Below the pieces are notes generated by a model. It did no database searches. It was given only the letters and a program-made list of their open reading frames with translations, and had not been told where the DNA came from. Below are positions 3,924 to 8,982 of a DNA stretch of 64,000 nt, in pieces. How positions within the stretch are numbered: the stretch's first letter is position 1; every line of letters begins with the position of its first letter. Source of the stretch: Gemmatimonadales bacterium (GTDB lineage: Bacteria > Gemmatimonadota > Gemmatimonadetes > Gemmatimonadales > GWC2-71-9); contig DATAOI010000022.1 of assembly GCA_036265815.1 (NCBI GenBank), positions 1 to 64,000 of the forward strand. The letters run 5' to 3'. Both the position numbers and the translations under genes were made by a program.

Positions 3924-4273
3924 CGCCCCGGCCCCCCGAGGCGTTGCGGCTGGCCATGGACGCCATTCAGGATCTGAAGGGCAATCAAATCGTGGTCCTC
4001 GATTTGCGCGGGCTGACTGAGGCCACGGACTATTTCGTCATCGCATCGGGTACATCCGACGCGCACGTGCGGGGCATTGCGGAATCGGTCATCGAGAAGC
4101 TCGGCCGTCGGGGCCACCGCACGCATCACGTCGAAGGCCTGAACGGCGGCCGATGGGTGCTGCTGGACTTCGTGGATTTCGTGGTTCACCTGTTCCACCC
4201 CGAGACCCGCTCGTTCTACCAGCTCGAGCGGCTCTGGGACGACGCACCGGAGCTCCTGATCAGCTCCACCTAG
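3920..4273 (+). CDS. rsfS: Ribosomal silencing factor RsfS
   Basis: RsfS (Iojap/YbeB family) binds L14 on the large subunit and blocks subunit joining when nutrients are limiting. The GTG start at 3920 overlaps the previous stop in a GTGA and gives 117 residues, the usual family length. Family motifs visible are the LRGLTEATDYFVIASG segment, HVRGIAESV, and the C-terminal WVLLDFVDFVVHLFHPETRSFYQLERLW. The position behind ribosomal protein genes is consistent with the role. Confidence 0.94.
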   Translation: MTPRPPEALRLAMDAIQDLKGNQIVVLDLRGLTEATDYFVIASGTSDAHVRGIAESVIEKLGRRGHRTHHVEGLNGGRWVLLDFVDFVVHLFHPETRSFYQLERLWDDAPELLISST

Positions 4274-4284
4274 CTGAGGTCGCC

Positions 4285-7200
4285 ATGTTTCGACGCACCG
4301 CACCGGCATTGCTGCTCCTGCTCCTCGGGGTGCCGGGAGTCCTGCCCGCCCAGTATTTCGGGCGCAACAAGGTCCAGTACACGAGGTTCGACTTCAAGGT
4401 CATCCAGACCGAGCATTTCGATGTGTACTACTACGACCGGGAGCGGACCGCCGCCATGGATGCCGCGCGGATGGCGGAGCGCTCCTACGGCCGGCTCTCC
4501 AAGGTGCTGAATCACGAGTTCCGGGAGCGGAAACCGATCATTCTGTACGCCTCCCATTCCGACTTCCAGCAGACCAACGCGCTGGGTGAGGCTCCGGGCG
4601 AAGGCACCGGCGGCGTGACCGACTTCGAGCGCAACCGCGCGGTGATGCCGTTTACCGGCTCCTACGCCGAGTTCGAGCACGTGCTCCAGCACGAGATGAC
4701 CCACCAGTTCCAGTACGACATCTGGTCCCATGGGCGGGCCGGCGCGGGCCTCTCCAACCTGATCGCGATCGCGCCGCCGCTGTGGTTCGCCGAGGGCATG
4801 GCGGAATACCTCTCGCTCGGCCCCATCAACGCCGAAACGGCGATGTGGCTGCGCGACGCCTCGCTCGAAGGAAAGCTCCCCACCATCGAGCAGATGACCG
4901 AGGACCCGTACACCTACTTCCCCTATCGTTTCGGCCACGCGCTGTGGTCCTACATCGGCGAGCGCTGGGGAGACGAGGCGGTCGGCGCCATCATGAAGGC
5001 GACCCTCGCCGGCGGCATCGAGCCCGCCTTCAAGCGCACCATCGGGCTCAATCTGGAGCAGTTGTCGGATCAATGGCGGGACGCCGTGCAGAAGCGCTAC
5101 CTCCCGGAGATCGGTGCCCGGGCCAAGGCGAAGGCCATCGCGGACGAGCTGCTCACCGAGAAGCGGTCGGACGGCACCCTGCACCTCGCGCCGGCCCTCT
5201 CGCCCGATGGCTCGGCGGTGGCCTACTTCAGCGAGAAGAACTTCTACTTCGTGGATCTGTATCTGGCCGACGGCACCACCGGCAAGGTGAAGCGCCGGAT
5301 TCTCAAGTCGGGCATCAGCAGCAACTACGAGACCTACCGCTTCATCAACTCGCAGGCCAACTGGTCGGCGGACGGGAAGTATCTCGCCTTTGCCGCCAAG
5401 CGGGGACCGCGAGACGTCATCGTGATCGTCGACGTGGCGCGCAACAAAGAGGTGAAGCGCATCGACGTCAAGCTGAGCGGCGTCACCACGCCCTCCTGGA
5501 GTCCCGACGGAAACCAGCTGGTCTTCACCGGCTACGACGGTGGCCTGAGTGATCTCTTCGTCGTCGACCGCGATGGTCGCAATCTCCGCCGGCTGACCAC
5601 CGACAAGTTCGCCGACCTGCACCCGGTCTGGTCGCCCGACGGCAGCACCATCGCCTTTGCCACCGACCGGGGCCCCCGGACCGACTTCAAGACGCTGGAC
5701 ATCGGCAACCTGCGCATCGCCTTCTACGACCTGGCCACCGGCACCATAAAGGTGCTGGAGCATATGGACCAGGGTAAGAACGTGAGCCCGCAATGGGCGC
5801 CCGACGGTCACTCGCTCGCGTTCGTCTCCGACCGGAACGGGGTGAGCAACGTCTTTCTCTATGAGCTGGGCGACCAGCAGGTCTATCAGCTCACCGATTT
5901 CTACACCGGCGTCCAGGGAATCACGCCGCTCTCACCCGTGCTCTCCTGGGCCCGCCAGGCCGACCGGCTCGCCTTCGTGTACTACGAGGCCGGGAAGTAC
6001 GATGTCTACTCGCTGGCGAACCCGCGGTCGCTGAAGCGCTCCCCCTACCAGCCGGCAGCGGTGGACAGCACCGGGATGCTGGCCCGGGTGACCAACCCAC
6101 CGATCGACACCACCCGGTCGCTCCAGGTGCGTGAGGACGTGCGCGCGCAGGTGGGTGAAGGCGGCTCGATCTACCGGACCCAGCGGGGATTCCGCTCCGC
6201 CGCTGACCTGGCCCGCTCGGGAGACACCGTCCAGCTCGACCAGCCGGTCTCGATCTCGGCGCTGATGGACTCGGCCAACTACAGCCTGCCCGATACCAGC
6301 GAATTCACTCTGAAAGACTACCGGGTGCACTTCACGCCCGACTACATCGCGCGGCCCTCGATCGGATATGCCCGCGACAACTTCGGCCGCGGATTTTTCG
6401 GCGGGTCCGCCATCTCGCTGAGTGATATTCTGGGCAACCACCAGCTGGTGTTCGCGGGCTACGTCAACGGGCGGATCAGCGAGGCCCAGGTACTGGCGGC
6501 CTATGCCAACCTGAGCAAACGGGTCAACTGGGCGGTGGGCGCCTCGCAAGATCCCTACTATTTCCTCGAGCCCAGCACGGTGCTTACCGGCAGCCCCACG
6601 GCGGGGGAGAACACCTTCGTCACCAACATCCGCCGGCTGGTGCTGCGCTCGGTGTTTGGCCAGGCGTACTATCCTATCAGCCGGTTCCAGCGGATCGAGG
6701 CGGGGATGCGCTTCTCCAACGTGGACGACGCCATCCTCCACATCAATGAGCCCTACGATCCATCGACCAGCTTCGCCACCCGGGACGCTTTCCTGGAGAC
6801 GGAGAACCTCCCGGGCGTCAACTACTTCCAGCCTTCCACCGCGCTGGTGTTCGACAACTCGCTGTTCGGTTACGTCGGACCGTTCTACGGCCGGCGCTAC
6901 CGCCTGGAGTTCGCCCAGACCCTGGGCGACTGGCGCTTCTCCCAGGTGACCGCCGATTACCGGAGGTACGACCGCATCGTCGGACCGATCGTGCTAGCGA
7001 CCCGGGCGCTCTACTTCGGGCGGATCGGGCGGGACGCGCGCGAGTTCCGCATTTTCGCGGGCAGCACCGACCTCATTCGAGGCAATACCTCGGGGTCCTA
7101 CCGGAGGAACGAGTGTCTCAACGCCGATGATCCCAACTCCGAAACCGGGTGTGCCGAGCTCGACCGGCTGGTCGGGACCCAGGTCGGGGTCGGCAGCGTG

Positions 7201-7494
7201 GAGCTGCGCTTCCCCATCCTCAACCCCTCGTTCGGACTGCCGGCGGCGTTCCCGCCCATCGAAGGCGCGCTGTTCTACGACATCGGCCTCGCCTGGGACG
7301 AACAGAGCACGCTCAAGTGGAACCGGGAGGCCGGTGACGACCCGATTCGGGTGCGGACTCCGCTGCAGACGCTGGGCGCATCCGTCCGGGTGAACCTGTT
7401 CGGCTTCGCCATCGCGCGGTTGGACTATTCGATTCCGCAACAGCGAAAGGGCGTCAAGGGACTTTGGACCTTCAGTCTCGGGCCGACCTTCTGA
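4285..7494 (+). CDS. Exported metallopeptidase / TolB-like propeller / outer-membrane barrel protein
   Basis: A 1,069-residue exported protein in three parts. Residues 1-22 are a signal peptide ending LPAQ. Residues about 30-290 resemble the peptidase-MA (gluzincin) fold, with His136-Glu137-x-x-His140 (QHEMTHQF) and a downstream Glu in WFAEGMAEYLS that fits the third zinc ligand. Residues about 290-620 contain repeated SPDG/DLFVVDRDG blocks typical of TolB/PD40 beta-propellers. The remainder is rich in alternating aromatic and polar strands and ends in a terminal Phe (FSLGPTF), as outer-membrane barrels do; BamA-like surface-antigen homology is possible. I infer a surface or periplasmic protease anchored by its own barrel. 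The substrate is unknown. The ATG chosen opens the signal peptide. Confidence 0.75.
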   Translation: MFRRTAPALLLLLLGVPGVLPAQYFGRNKVQYTRFDFKVIQTEHFDVYYYDRERTAAMDAARMAERSYGRLSKVLNHEFRERKPIILYASHSDFQQTNALGEAPGEGTGGVTDFERNRAVMPFTGSYAEFEHVLQHEMTHQFQYDIWSHGRAGAGLSNLIAIAPPLWFAEGMAEYLSLGPINAETAMWLRDASLEGKLPTIEQMTEDPYTYFPYRFGHALWSYIGERWGDEAVGAIMKATLAGGIEPAFKRTIGLNLEQLSDQWRDAVQKRYLPEIGARAKAKAIADELLTEKRSDGTLHLAPALSPDGSAVAYFSEKNFYFVDLYLADGTTGKVKRRILKSGISSNYETYRFINSQANWSADGKYLAFAAKRGPRDVIVIVDVARNKEVKRIDVKLSGVTTPSWSPDGNQLVFTGYDGGLSDLFVVDRDGRNLRRLTTDKFADLHPVWSPDGSTIAFATDRGPRTDFKTLDIGNLRIAFYDLATGTIKVLEHMDQGKNVSPQWAPDGHSLAFVSDRNGVSNVFLYELGDQQVYQLTDFYTGVQGITPLSPVLSWARQADRLAFVYYEAGKYDVYSLANPRSLKRSPYQPAAVDSTGMLARVTNPPIDTTRSLQVREDVRAQVGEGGSIYRTQRGFRSAADLARSGDTVQLDQPVSISALMDSANYSLPDTSEFTLKDYRVHFTPDYIARPSIGYARDNFGRGFFGGSAISLSDILGNHQLVFAGYVNGRISEAQVLAAYANLSKRVNWAVGASQDPYYFLEPSTVLTGSPTAGENTFVTNIRRLVLRSVFGQAYYPISRFQRIEAGMRFSNVDDAILHINEPYDPSTSFATRDAFLETENLPGVNYFQPSTALVFDNSLFGYVGPFYGRRYRLEFAQTLGDWRFSQVTADYRRYDRIVGPIVLATRALYFGRIGRDAREFRIFAGSTDLIRGNTSGSYRRNECLNADDPNSETGCAELDRLVGTQVGVGSVELRFPILNPSFGLPAAFPPIEGALFYDIGLAWDEQSTLKWNREAGDDPIRVRTPLQTLGASVRVNLFGFAIARLDYSIPQQRKGVKGLWTFSLGPTF

Positions 7495-7587: not shown

Positions 7588-8982
7588 GTGAACATTTCCT
7601 GGTCAGCGCTGGGAGTCGTCCTTGTGCTCCTCGGGGCGGCGTGCGAGCGCGAGACGAAGCTGTCCCTGGGGAAAGTCCCCGCCGTCACCCAGGGCCCCGC
7701 TCCGTCCTCCGCGTTGCGCATGCCCCCCGGTGGTGGCGTCCCTCGACTGTACCGGCTGCCCACCCTGAGCCCATCCTCCTGGGCCATCGAAGACAAGCTC
7801 CCCGCGATCGAGCGGCCGATCGGGGCCGACGCCGAGCAGGGGCTGGTGTACGTCCTGGACGGCAAGCGCAACGTGGTGGCACTCGACCTGGAGACCCGGC
7901 GGGTACGGACCTCGCTGGATCAGATCCGCTATGCCGCGGTCGGGCCGGATGGTGCCTTGTACACCGTCGATACGGGGAGCACGGTCACCCAACTGGTACG
8001 GCGAGCGCCGGTCCGCTTCCGCTCCAAGCTGCAGGGCACCCCCGCCGAGCTCTATGCTACCATGAGCGGAGCCGTGCTGGCGCGGCTGACCGGCCCAGCG
8101 CCGGTGCTGGAGGCGTTGGGCTCCGACCAGGCGCCGACCTCCACCACACTCCCCTCGGGCCCGCTGGCCACGAGCCTCTACGGCGACCTGGTGGCGGTAG
8201 CCGCCGATACCGCGGTGGTCCTCTACGCGCCGCTGGGCAAGACGCGCCCGCTCTCGCTCCCGGTGTCGGGGCACGCGCGGGCGGCCGTGTTCTCGCCGTC
8301 GGGGCATCGGGTCTACGTCGCGCAGCAGGACCACCAGCTGCTGGTCTTCGACCGCTTCAGCGGCGCGCGGATCCAGACCATCGACCTGCCCGGCGGCGCC
8401 CGCGGGCTGCGGGGCGACCAGTACGGCCAATGGCTCATGGTCCGCCCCGACAGCGGTGATTCGGCGTGGGTCATCGACATCGGGCGCGCACGCCGCACCG
8501 GCACGGTGGCCACCAAGTGGGCCGCCGACCTGCCGGCGGTCGCGTCACCCAACACTCTGCTGGCGCGCGAGGGGAAGGACGTGATCGGGCGCGACCTGGG
8601 CAAGACCGGATTTCCCGAGACCGGTCGGGTGGCGGATGGGGCGGACGATTTCTGGCTGGTCATCGGATGGCGGCCCGCCCAGGACGTGGAGACCGTCAGC
8701 GCCTCGGATTCGGCGGCCGTGGCGGCGGCGGCCGATTCGCAAGCGGCGCCGTCGGTGTATCTCCAGGTGAGCAGCTCACAGAACCCGTCCTGGGCCAACG
8801 AGCTGTCGGACAAGCTGCGGGCTGCGGGCCTGCCCGCGTCGGTGCTCCCGCCCAAGCGGAGCGACGAGGCGTACCGGGTGGTGCTCGGCCCGTATGCCTC
8901 GCGCGATCAGGCGGAGGAGACCGGCCGGAAGATCGGCATGCCGTCGTTTGTCGTCACGGCGCAGGACGAAGCGGCGCAGTAG
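7588..8982 (+). CDS. Secreted SPOR-domain protein with propeller-like middle
   Basis: A 464-residue exported protein starting at GTG. The hydrophobic N-terminus runs to Cys19 (VVLVLLGAAC); this could be a lipoprotein site, although Gly at -3 makes the lipobox weak. The middle 300 residues contain repeats such as LYVLDGKRNVVALDL-type strands, suggesting a beta-propeller. Residues about 388-460 are a SPOR domain (YLQVSSSQNPSWANELSDKL ... YRVVLGPYASRDQAEETGRK), which binds glycan strands lacking stem peptides at division sites. A cell-envelope role near the septum is therefore inferred. A hydrophilic Ala-rich linker separates the two parts. Confidence 0.75.
   Translation: MNISWSALGVVLVLLGAACERETKLSLGKVPAVTQGPAPSSALRMPPGGGVPRLYRLPTLSPSSWAIEDKLPAIERPIGADAEQGLVYVLDGKRNVVALDLETRRVRTSLDQIRYAAVGPDGALYTVDTGSTVTQLVRRAPVRFRSKLQGTPAELYATMSGAVLARLTGPAPVLEALGSDQAPTSTTLPSGPLATSLYGDLVAVAADTAVVLYAPLGKTRPLSLPVSGHARAAVFSPSGHRVYVAQQDHQLLVFDRFSGARIQTIDLPGGARGLRGDQYGQWLMVRPDSGDSAWVIDIGRARRTGTVATKWAADLPAVASPNTLLAREGKDVIGRDLGKTGFPETGRVADGADDFWLVIGWRPAQDVETVSASDSAAVAAAADSQAAPSVYLQVSSSQNPSWANELSDKLRAAGLPASVLPPKRSDEAYRVVLGPYASRDQAEETGRKIGMPSFVVTAQDEAAQ

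Follow-up and report, generated by a model that had tools for sequence, protein, structure and literature searches.

In 2014, Heinz and Lithgow defined the WD40-Omp85 subfamily, a group of unknown function whose propeller is closest to TolB, and compared it to a BamA-BamB fusion (PMC4104836). Their scheme allows Omp85 subfamilies without POTRA domains, describes subfamilies besides BamA, TamA, and Lipo as not vertically inherited or as conserved only at the genus level, and includes a "Metallo" subfamily with an N-terminal metalloprotease, defined by PF00149 (PMC4104836). Because Pfam names PF00149 Metallophos, the "Omp85-metalloprotease" label looks like a misnomer. According to a 2024 paper, neither the metalloprotease-type nor the WD40-like Omp85 subfamily is well characterized (PMC11116518). 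The same paper finds the enzyme domain of PlpD, a patatin-like Omp85 protein of Pseudomonas aeruginosa earlier put in a surface-export class, to be periplasmic, and argues that it is unfavorable for a folded domain to cross an Omp85 barrel. Escherichia coli has a barrel, a propeller, and a metallopeptidase at its outer membrane in three proteins, namely, BamA with its POTRAs, BamB, and BepA, an M48 metallopeptidase that acts on LptD at BAM (PMC8423444). Here, we analyzed a 64,000-nucleotide stretch of Gemmatimonadales bacterium DNA (GenBank assembly GCA_036265815.1, contig DATAOI010000022.1; the window), where a gene at positions 4285 to 7494 encodes such parts in one chain.

Almost certainly, the product of this gene combines three folds in a single exported chain: a gluzincin metallopeptidase, a TolB-type propeller, and an Omp85-type barrel. 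Sequence and structural models lead us to propose, with moderate confidence, that it is an outer-membrane-anchored, periplasm-facing predicted zinc endopeptidase serving envelope protein processing or quality control. The reading frame (+ strand) has an ATG start at 4285 and 1069 codons, after which comes a stop codon whose last base is 7494. Conservation is given for an alignment of 74 rows (A1), drawn from 76 collected proteins with the truncated L023 and L078 left out; the full-length L046 and L059, as well as L117 to L124, are also outside A1. The gene and its parts are as follows.

4285 to 7494, + strand: whole gene for the gluzincin-propeller-Omp85 protein (reading frame and full-length homologues)
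4285 to 4350, + strand: signal-peptide-like segment, residues 1-22, ending in VLPA before Q (sequence)
4354 to 5160, + strand: gluzincin metallopeptidase domain, residues 24-292 as modelled (AlphaFold2 model and fold match)
4609 to 4614, + strand: Gly109-Gly110 ahead of a predicted strand (collagenase-like double-Gly/edge-strand motif)
4690 to 4704, + strand: the HExxH motif, HEMTH, residues 136-140 (invariant in A1)
4792 to 4794, + strand: predicted third zinc ligand E170, within W-x-x-E-G-M-A-E (74/74 rows)
5152 to 6036, + strand: TolB-type propeller, residues 290-584, approximately (PF07676 and fold match)
6037 to 6306, + strand: linker, residues 585-674 (mostly of low model confidence; variable length)
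6307 to 7491, + strand: Omp85-type barrel, residues 675-1069 (PF01103, fold match, and C-terminal aromatic residue)
7075 to 7086, + strand: I-R-G-N, residues 931-934, the Omp85 L6 "RG" motif, in a loop between predicted strands 11 and 12
7114 to 7152, + strand: cysteine pair C944/C956 in the RG-bearing loop (C in 70/74 and 68/74 rows)

At the end of the signal-peptide-like segment, the A22 column is A in 70/74 rows and the Q23 column is Q in 67/74; a conserved YFGxNKVQY stretch follows. Conservation is highest in the peptidase domain (mean top-residue share of 0.67, against 0.63 for the propeller and 0.53 for the barrel). A reading of this DNA made from sequence only had claimed a gluzincin HExxH...E site, and the protein indeed contains exactly one HExxH, with the catalytic-site numbering E137 as given there and E170 placed 30 residues past H140. 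Chance occurrence of the motif was ruled out by the expectation for a shuffled protein of the same composition (0.0096) together with its conservation in 74/74 rows. H136, E137, H140, E170, and Y214 occur together in every one of the 74 rows, members of both paralogue clades described below included; this fully conserved active site makes it very improbable that the peptidase fold is a catalytically dead scaffold that merely binds clients. Y214 may be equivalent to a catalytic tyrosine of collagenase G. Second-shell residues Q143 (73/74) and E174 (72/74) are also conserved, as are the G109-G110 pair (66/74) and G110 alone (74/74). The proteins outside A1 extend this pattern: both peptidase motifs were matched in L046, L059, L023, L078, L119, L120, L121, L122, and L124, and L123 has the variants HELAH and WFIEGMVE. 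A more distant gluzincin, L118 (G052:C324), carries HEIVH and WMLEGLAT and shares 25% identity with the window protein across residues 37-542.

The arrangement conserved in A1 is described for clostridial collagenases as well, in which the third ligand lies 28 or 30 residues downstream of HExxH, a Gln follows HExxH and a Glu follows the Glu ligand by one helical turn each, and a double-Gly precedes the edge strand (PMC3711286). Structural comparison pointed to the same relatives. Residues 24-292 were modelled by AlphaFold2 from 16 alignment rows (predicted local distance difference test [pLDDT] of 82.4; predicted template modeling score [pTM] of 0.81). VIA-align matched this model best to the M9 collagenase 7wss (Z of 16.9; 3.5 Å; 229 residues aligned), with a lower value for the M30 peptidase lugdulysin (Z of 15.7) and aminopeptidases below that. 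The best 50 rows (Z of 16.9 to 12.3) comprised collagenases, the one M30 peptidase, and aminopeptidases of the M1 kind, plus one row, 7edx_B, with the title of a TFIID complex. Foldseek returned three matches at E ≤ 0.001, all to collagenase G and H peptidase domains (9.3 × 10−5 to 3.2 × 10−4), and a profile of 48 peptidase domains matched three PDB sequences at E ≤ 10, collagenases only (7wss, 5.8 × 10−5; 7esi, 0.0047; 9l5o, 0.12).

Peptidase identity was weak by sequence alone and clear by fold. Scores fell below the family cut-offs for PF13485 (Peptidase_MA_2; 18.8 bits at full length and 23.0 for the domain alone; cut-off, 32.4), PF01752 (M9; 20.0 bits; cut-off, 26), the flagellinolysin model (25.8; cut-off, 205), and PF04450 (BSP; 18.9 bits, or 21.9 in the domain comparison; cut-off, 23.8). 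The PF04450 resemblance covers the HExxH region in a short stretch only, although 45 of the 48 peptidase domains match that family at E ≤ 0.01. Orthodox membership in M9, BSP, or MA_2 was thus ruled out by the cut-offs, leaving remote kinship by fold. Both motif and fold identify the domain as a gluzincin; its nearest family is M9, so that it is M9-like but outside M9. It shares with M9 collagenases and flagellinolysin the fold, the HExxH with a Glu about 30 residues on, and the second-shell Q and E, and with collagenases the double-Gly edge strand; it differs from them in its subthreshold scores and in being followed by a propeller and then an Omp85 barrel.

The second domain, expected from the sequence to be TolB-like, is a propeller by family match (PF07676, PD40 repeats; 92.3 bits; 5 stretches) and by fold (VIA-align to TolB; Z of 25.9; root mean square deviation of 2.5 Å; 248 residues aligned). 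Orthology to TolB was ruled out, since the NCBIfam model TIGR02800 scored 130.7 bits, below its equivalog cut-off of 343.15. While the propeller fold is shared with TolB, the window protein differs in having a peptidase in front of it and a barrel behind it.

The C-terminal domain, previously a "putative barrel," is an Omp85 barrel on the combined evidence of sequence, fold, and RG motif. PF01103 (Omp85 superfamily) matched residues 874-1069 (36.9 bits; cut-off, 24). VIA-align placed residues 691-1069 on E. coli BamA (6fsu; Z of 21.6; 3.7 Å; 302 residues aligned) and on TamA (8us4; Z of 20.9; 3.2 Å; 279 residues). Deinococcus radiodurans BamA scored higher (8xnb; Z of 23.3; 316 residues); this match was not used to set barrel bounds because the part of the model it covers begins as early as residue 98. 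According to DSSP, the full-length model has 16 strands of at least 3 residues between 675 and 1067, within the 12 to 18 strands anticipated in the sequence-only reading; the models thus contain a barrel and place the HExxH in a zinc-protease fold. The first barrel strands are uncertain (pLDDT below 50 at residues 680-717 and 723-730). I931-R932-G933 lies in the long loop that separates the 11th predicted strand from the 12th, and RG is present in 73/74 rows. In the same loop, C944 and C956 may form a disulfide. E973, R975, and D999 are invariant (74/74), and the last residue is F, Y, or W in all 74 rows. Among six homologues scanned with PF01103 at E ≤ 0.01, L073 and L092 matched, and L074, L071, L060, and L084 did not. 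By hhalign, the barrel profile aligned end to end with L093, a POTRA-Omp85 protein of the same genome (E of 2.4 × 10−7 in a single comparison), pairing RG with VRGF, ELRFP with ELRVP, and FYDIGLAW with FVDAGGVW; comparisons with three other Omp85 proteins of this genome, a 5-POTRA protein among them, gave E values of 0.039, 0.64, and 0.92. A further 470-aa Omp85 protein of the genome (L098:1420-2829; G000:C36) had no POTRA match at E ≤ 0.01 and is perhaps of the "noNterm" type.

BamA has five POTRAs ahead of its barrel. At E ≤ 1, the window protein matched no POTRA family, and the linker preceding its barrel is modelled with low confidence; elsewhere, the genome encodes three POTRA-bearing Omp85 proteins, one with 5 POTRA stretches. 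Orthology to BamA was ruled out on these grounds. The same facts bear on the possibility that the protein is a single-chain machine for outer membrane protein assembly and quality control, with the barrel as insertase or holdase, the propeller as a BamB-like platform, and the peptidase as a BepA-like proofreader. Its three parts do parallel the roles of BamA, BamB, and BepA, the WD40-Omp85 proteins have already been likened to a BamA-BamB fusion (PMC4104836), and the barrel residues E973, R975, and D999 never vary. However, besides the lack of a POTRA match and the retained POTRA-Omp85 proteins, the propeller is TolB-type, peptidase M48, to which BepA belongs, has 7 matches in the genome, and bam genes were not seen linked to the gene in the genome, so that we consider such a machine quite unlikely. 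Rather unlikely, too, is a phylum-wide one-polypeptide proofreader, in which the barrel would engage nascent or stalled barrels, the propeller would present them, and the gluzincin would cut the failures. If true, a fused protein functionally equivalent to BamA, BamB, and BepA would have evolved from different parts.

Like the WD40-Omp85 subfamily, the window protein has a propeller ahead of an Omp85 barrel; unlike that subfamily, its family is near-universal in the sampled phylum. The propeller-Omp85 kind is therefore already known; neither an intact gluzincin joined to it nor near-universal presence in this phylum was seen among the papers covered. An earlier statement that no member has been characterized agrees with PMC11116518; the subfamily has nonetheless been named since 2014 (PMC4104836), and the propeller-barrel combination is less isolated than had been thought. 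The main text of PMC4104836 contains no word starting with "peptidase" or "Gemmatimonad," and the window protein did not match PF00149 at E ≤ 1. Among the matches listed, no open-licence PubMed Central title or abstract beginning described a gluzincin-propeller-Omp85 protein, nor was a similar protein seen in the passages of PMC12611786 (Bacteroidota BAM) and PMC3482391.

Of the 200 Gemmatimonadota genomes sampled, 197 had a homologue matching at E ≤ 1 × 10−30, with 93/93 genera represented, answering a search across the phylum that had been suggested from the sequence; matches at this level tell neither paralogue type nor full length. The apparent absence from G074 arises because the homologue is cut by a 100-N assembly gap, just after which only the barrel part remains (L117; G074:C1:3528500-3535500). 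The window genome itself has two paralogues, L073:7257-10301 (G000:C27; 38% identity in the best segment) and L074:6831-9674 (G000:C45; 35% in the best segment), the latter on a long branch.

The gene is flanked on its own strand by the following two genes.

3956 to 4273, + strand: rsfS, directly upstream with an 11-nt gap (PF02410, 110.5 bits on the enclosing frame)
7588 to 8982, + strand: SPOR-domain gene, downstream (PF05036, 38.1 bits; lipobox-like LGAAC start)

The SPOR gene is a possible operon partner. Neighbours were counted in 45 loci of at least 9 kb, the window included, and in 30 of them rsfS immediately preceded the gene on the same strand. Around these 30, we found rplI in 29, a DUF2232 gene in 25, a DegV gene in 12, the SPOR gene in 25, and smc in 27, where 2 of the 30 loci end at, or no more than 25 bases from, the 3' end of the gene; the names rplI and smc are backed by Pfam. 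In a quick LG+G4 tree built from 49 of the 74 A1 rows, 13 of the 15 loci without rsfS fell on one branch (SH-aLRT of 100), with L071 and L074 as the two off it. That branch spans five families (f1, f4, f5, f6, and f9), including that of the window, so that the two paralogue clades are old. The window gene sits in a conserved rplI-rsfS-[gene]-SPOR-smc block, and the second clade lies outside such a block: no group of neighbouring frames recurred in more than 5 of its 13 loci, and those shared resembled overlapping-frame noise.

Outside Gemmatimonadota, a plasmid collection and viral contigs were scanned. Plasmid pSR116 of Salinibacter ruber encodes a 633-aa relative (L104:5911-7812) with peptidase and propeller (HELVH and EGMAEY), annotated as a "basic secretory protein-like protein" and followed by an S10 carboxypeptidase-like gene. 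Although 80 plasmid records matched, none had a single place spanning 80% of the query, and among the best 40 of the 80, only the Salinibacter record covered the HExxH region. The viral contigs yielded 3 weak partial loci (29 to 44% in the best segment).

How might the protein work? We propose that the barrel is inserted in the outer membrane with both the N and C termini on the periplasmic side; with this topology, peptidase and propeller would hang beneath the membrane, like the enzyme domain of PlpD. As a docking platform, the propeller would position client proteins or keep the peptidase near the barrel, and the predicted zinc peptidase would cut envelope proteins, whether assembly intermediates, misfolded proteins, or precursors, in a role comparable by functional analogy to that of the BAM-associated metallopeptidase BepA. 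The barrel would act as an anchor, perhaps also as a membrane-destabilizing or client-contact site; it is not expected to be the main insertase of the cell, since a BamA-like protein with five POTRAs is encoded separately in the genome. PlpD resembles the window protein in having an enzyme domain N-terminal to an Omp85 barrel and differs in being a dimeric phospholipase with a patatin-like domain and one POTRA, where the window protein has a peptidase and a propeller.

The Omp85 layout and the PlpD precedent favor the periplasm over the cell surface, and by this analogy a periplasmic peptidase is quite likely. The opposite placement would make the protein a surface protease, the barrel exporting the peptidase-propeller unit in a type V-like manner so that environmental protein could be used as food. 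Such an outward-facing enzyme would be in keeping with its nearest peptidase relatives, M9 collagenases and flagellinolysin, which work extracellularly (PMC5595980, PMC3711286), and the barrel-less Salinibacter relative indicates that the peptidase-propeller unit can stand alone. Nevertheless, we judge surface exposure unlikely: PlpD, once in the same class, has a periplasmic enzyme domain, transit of a folded domain was argued to be unfavorable (PMC11116518), and near-universal presence and the rplI-rsfS-smc context look like housekeeping, a role to which we give an even or slightly better chance.

Several observations weigh against a periplasmic peptidase of the envelope as proposed here. 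Its conserved neighbourhood consists of genes for the ribosome and the chromosome, and no link to bam genes was seen in the genomic context. G052 (99% complete) and G097 (96% complete) gave no match at E ≤ 1 × 10−20 even with a nearer query, so the protein is not indispensable in every member of the phylum. The Salinibacter relative and its S10-like neighbour have no PF01103 match at E ≤ 0.01; the anchor is thus not needed in every relative. The one A1 row without RG, the own-genome paralogue L073, has HG in its place. Finally, the full-length model is of moderate quality (pLDDT of 65.3; pTM of 0.42), which makes its domain arrangement and topology unreliable as predicted.

Insertases and translocons are the known roles of Omp85 proteins, whose non-canonical subfamilies have hardly been studied. 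Here, one chain carries a complete and invariant zinc-protease site together with an Omp85 barrel, and its family occurs in nearly all genomes sampled from a whole phylum, with one of its two old clades beside genes for the ribosome and the chromosome. The finding bears on the "Metallo" Omp85 subfamily of 2014, whose protease label is based on PF00149 (Metallophos), and it offers a concrete, testable case of outer membrane proteolysis that may be hard-wired to an Omp85 barrel.

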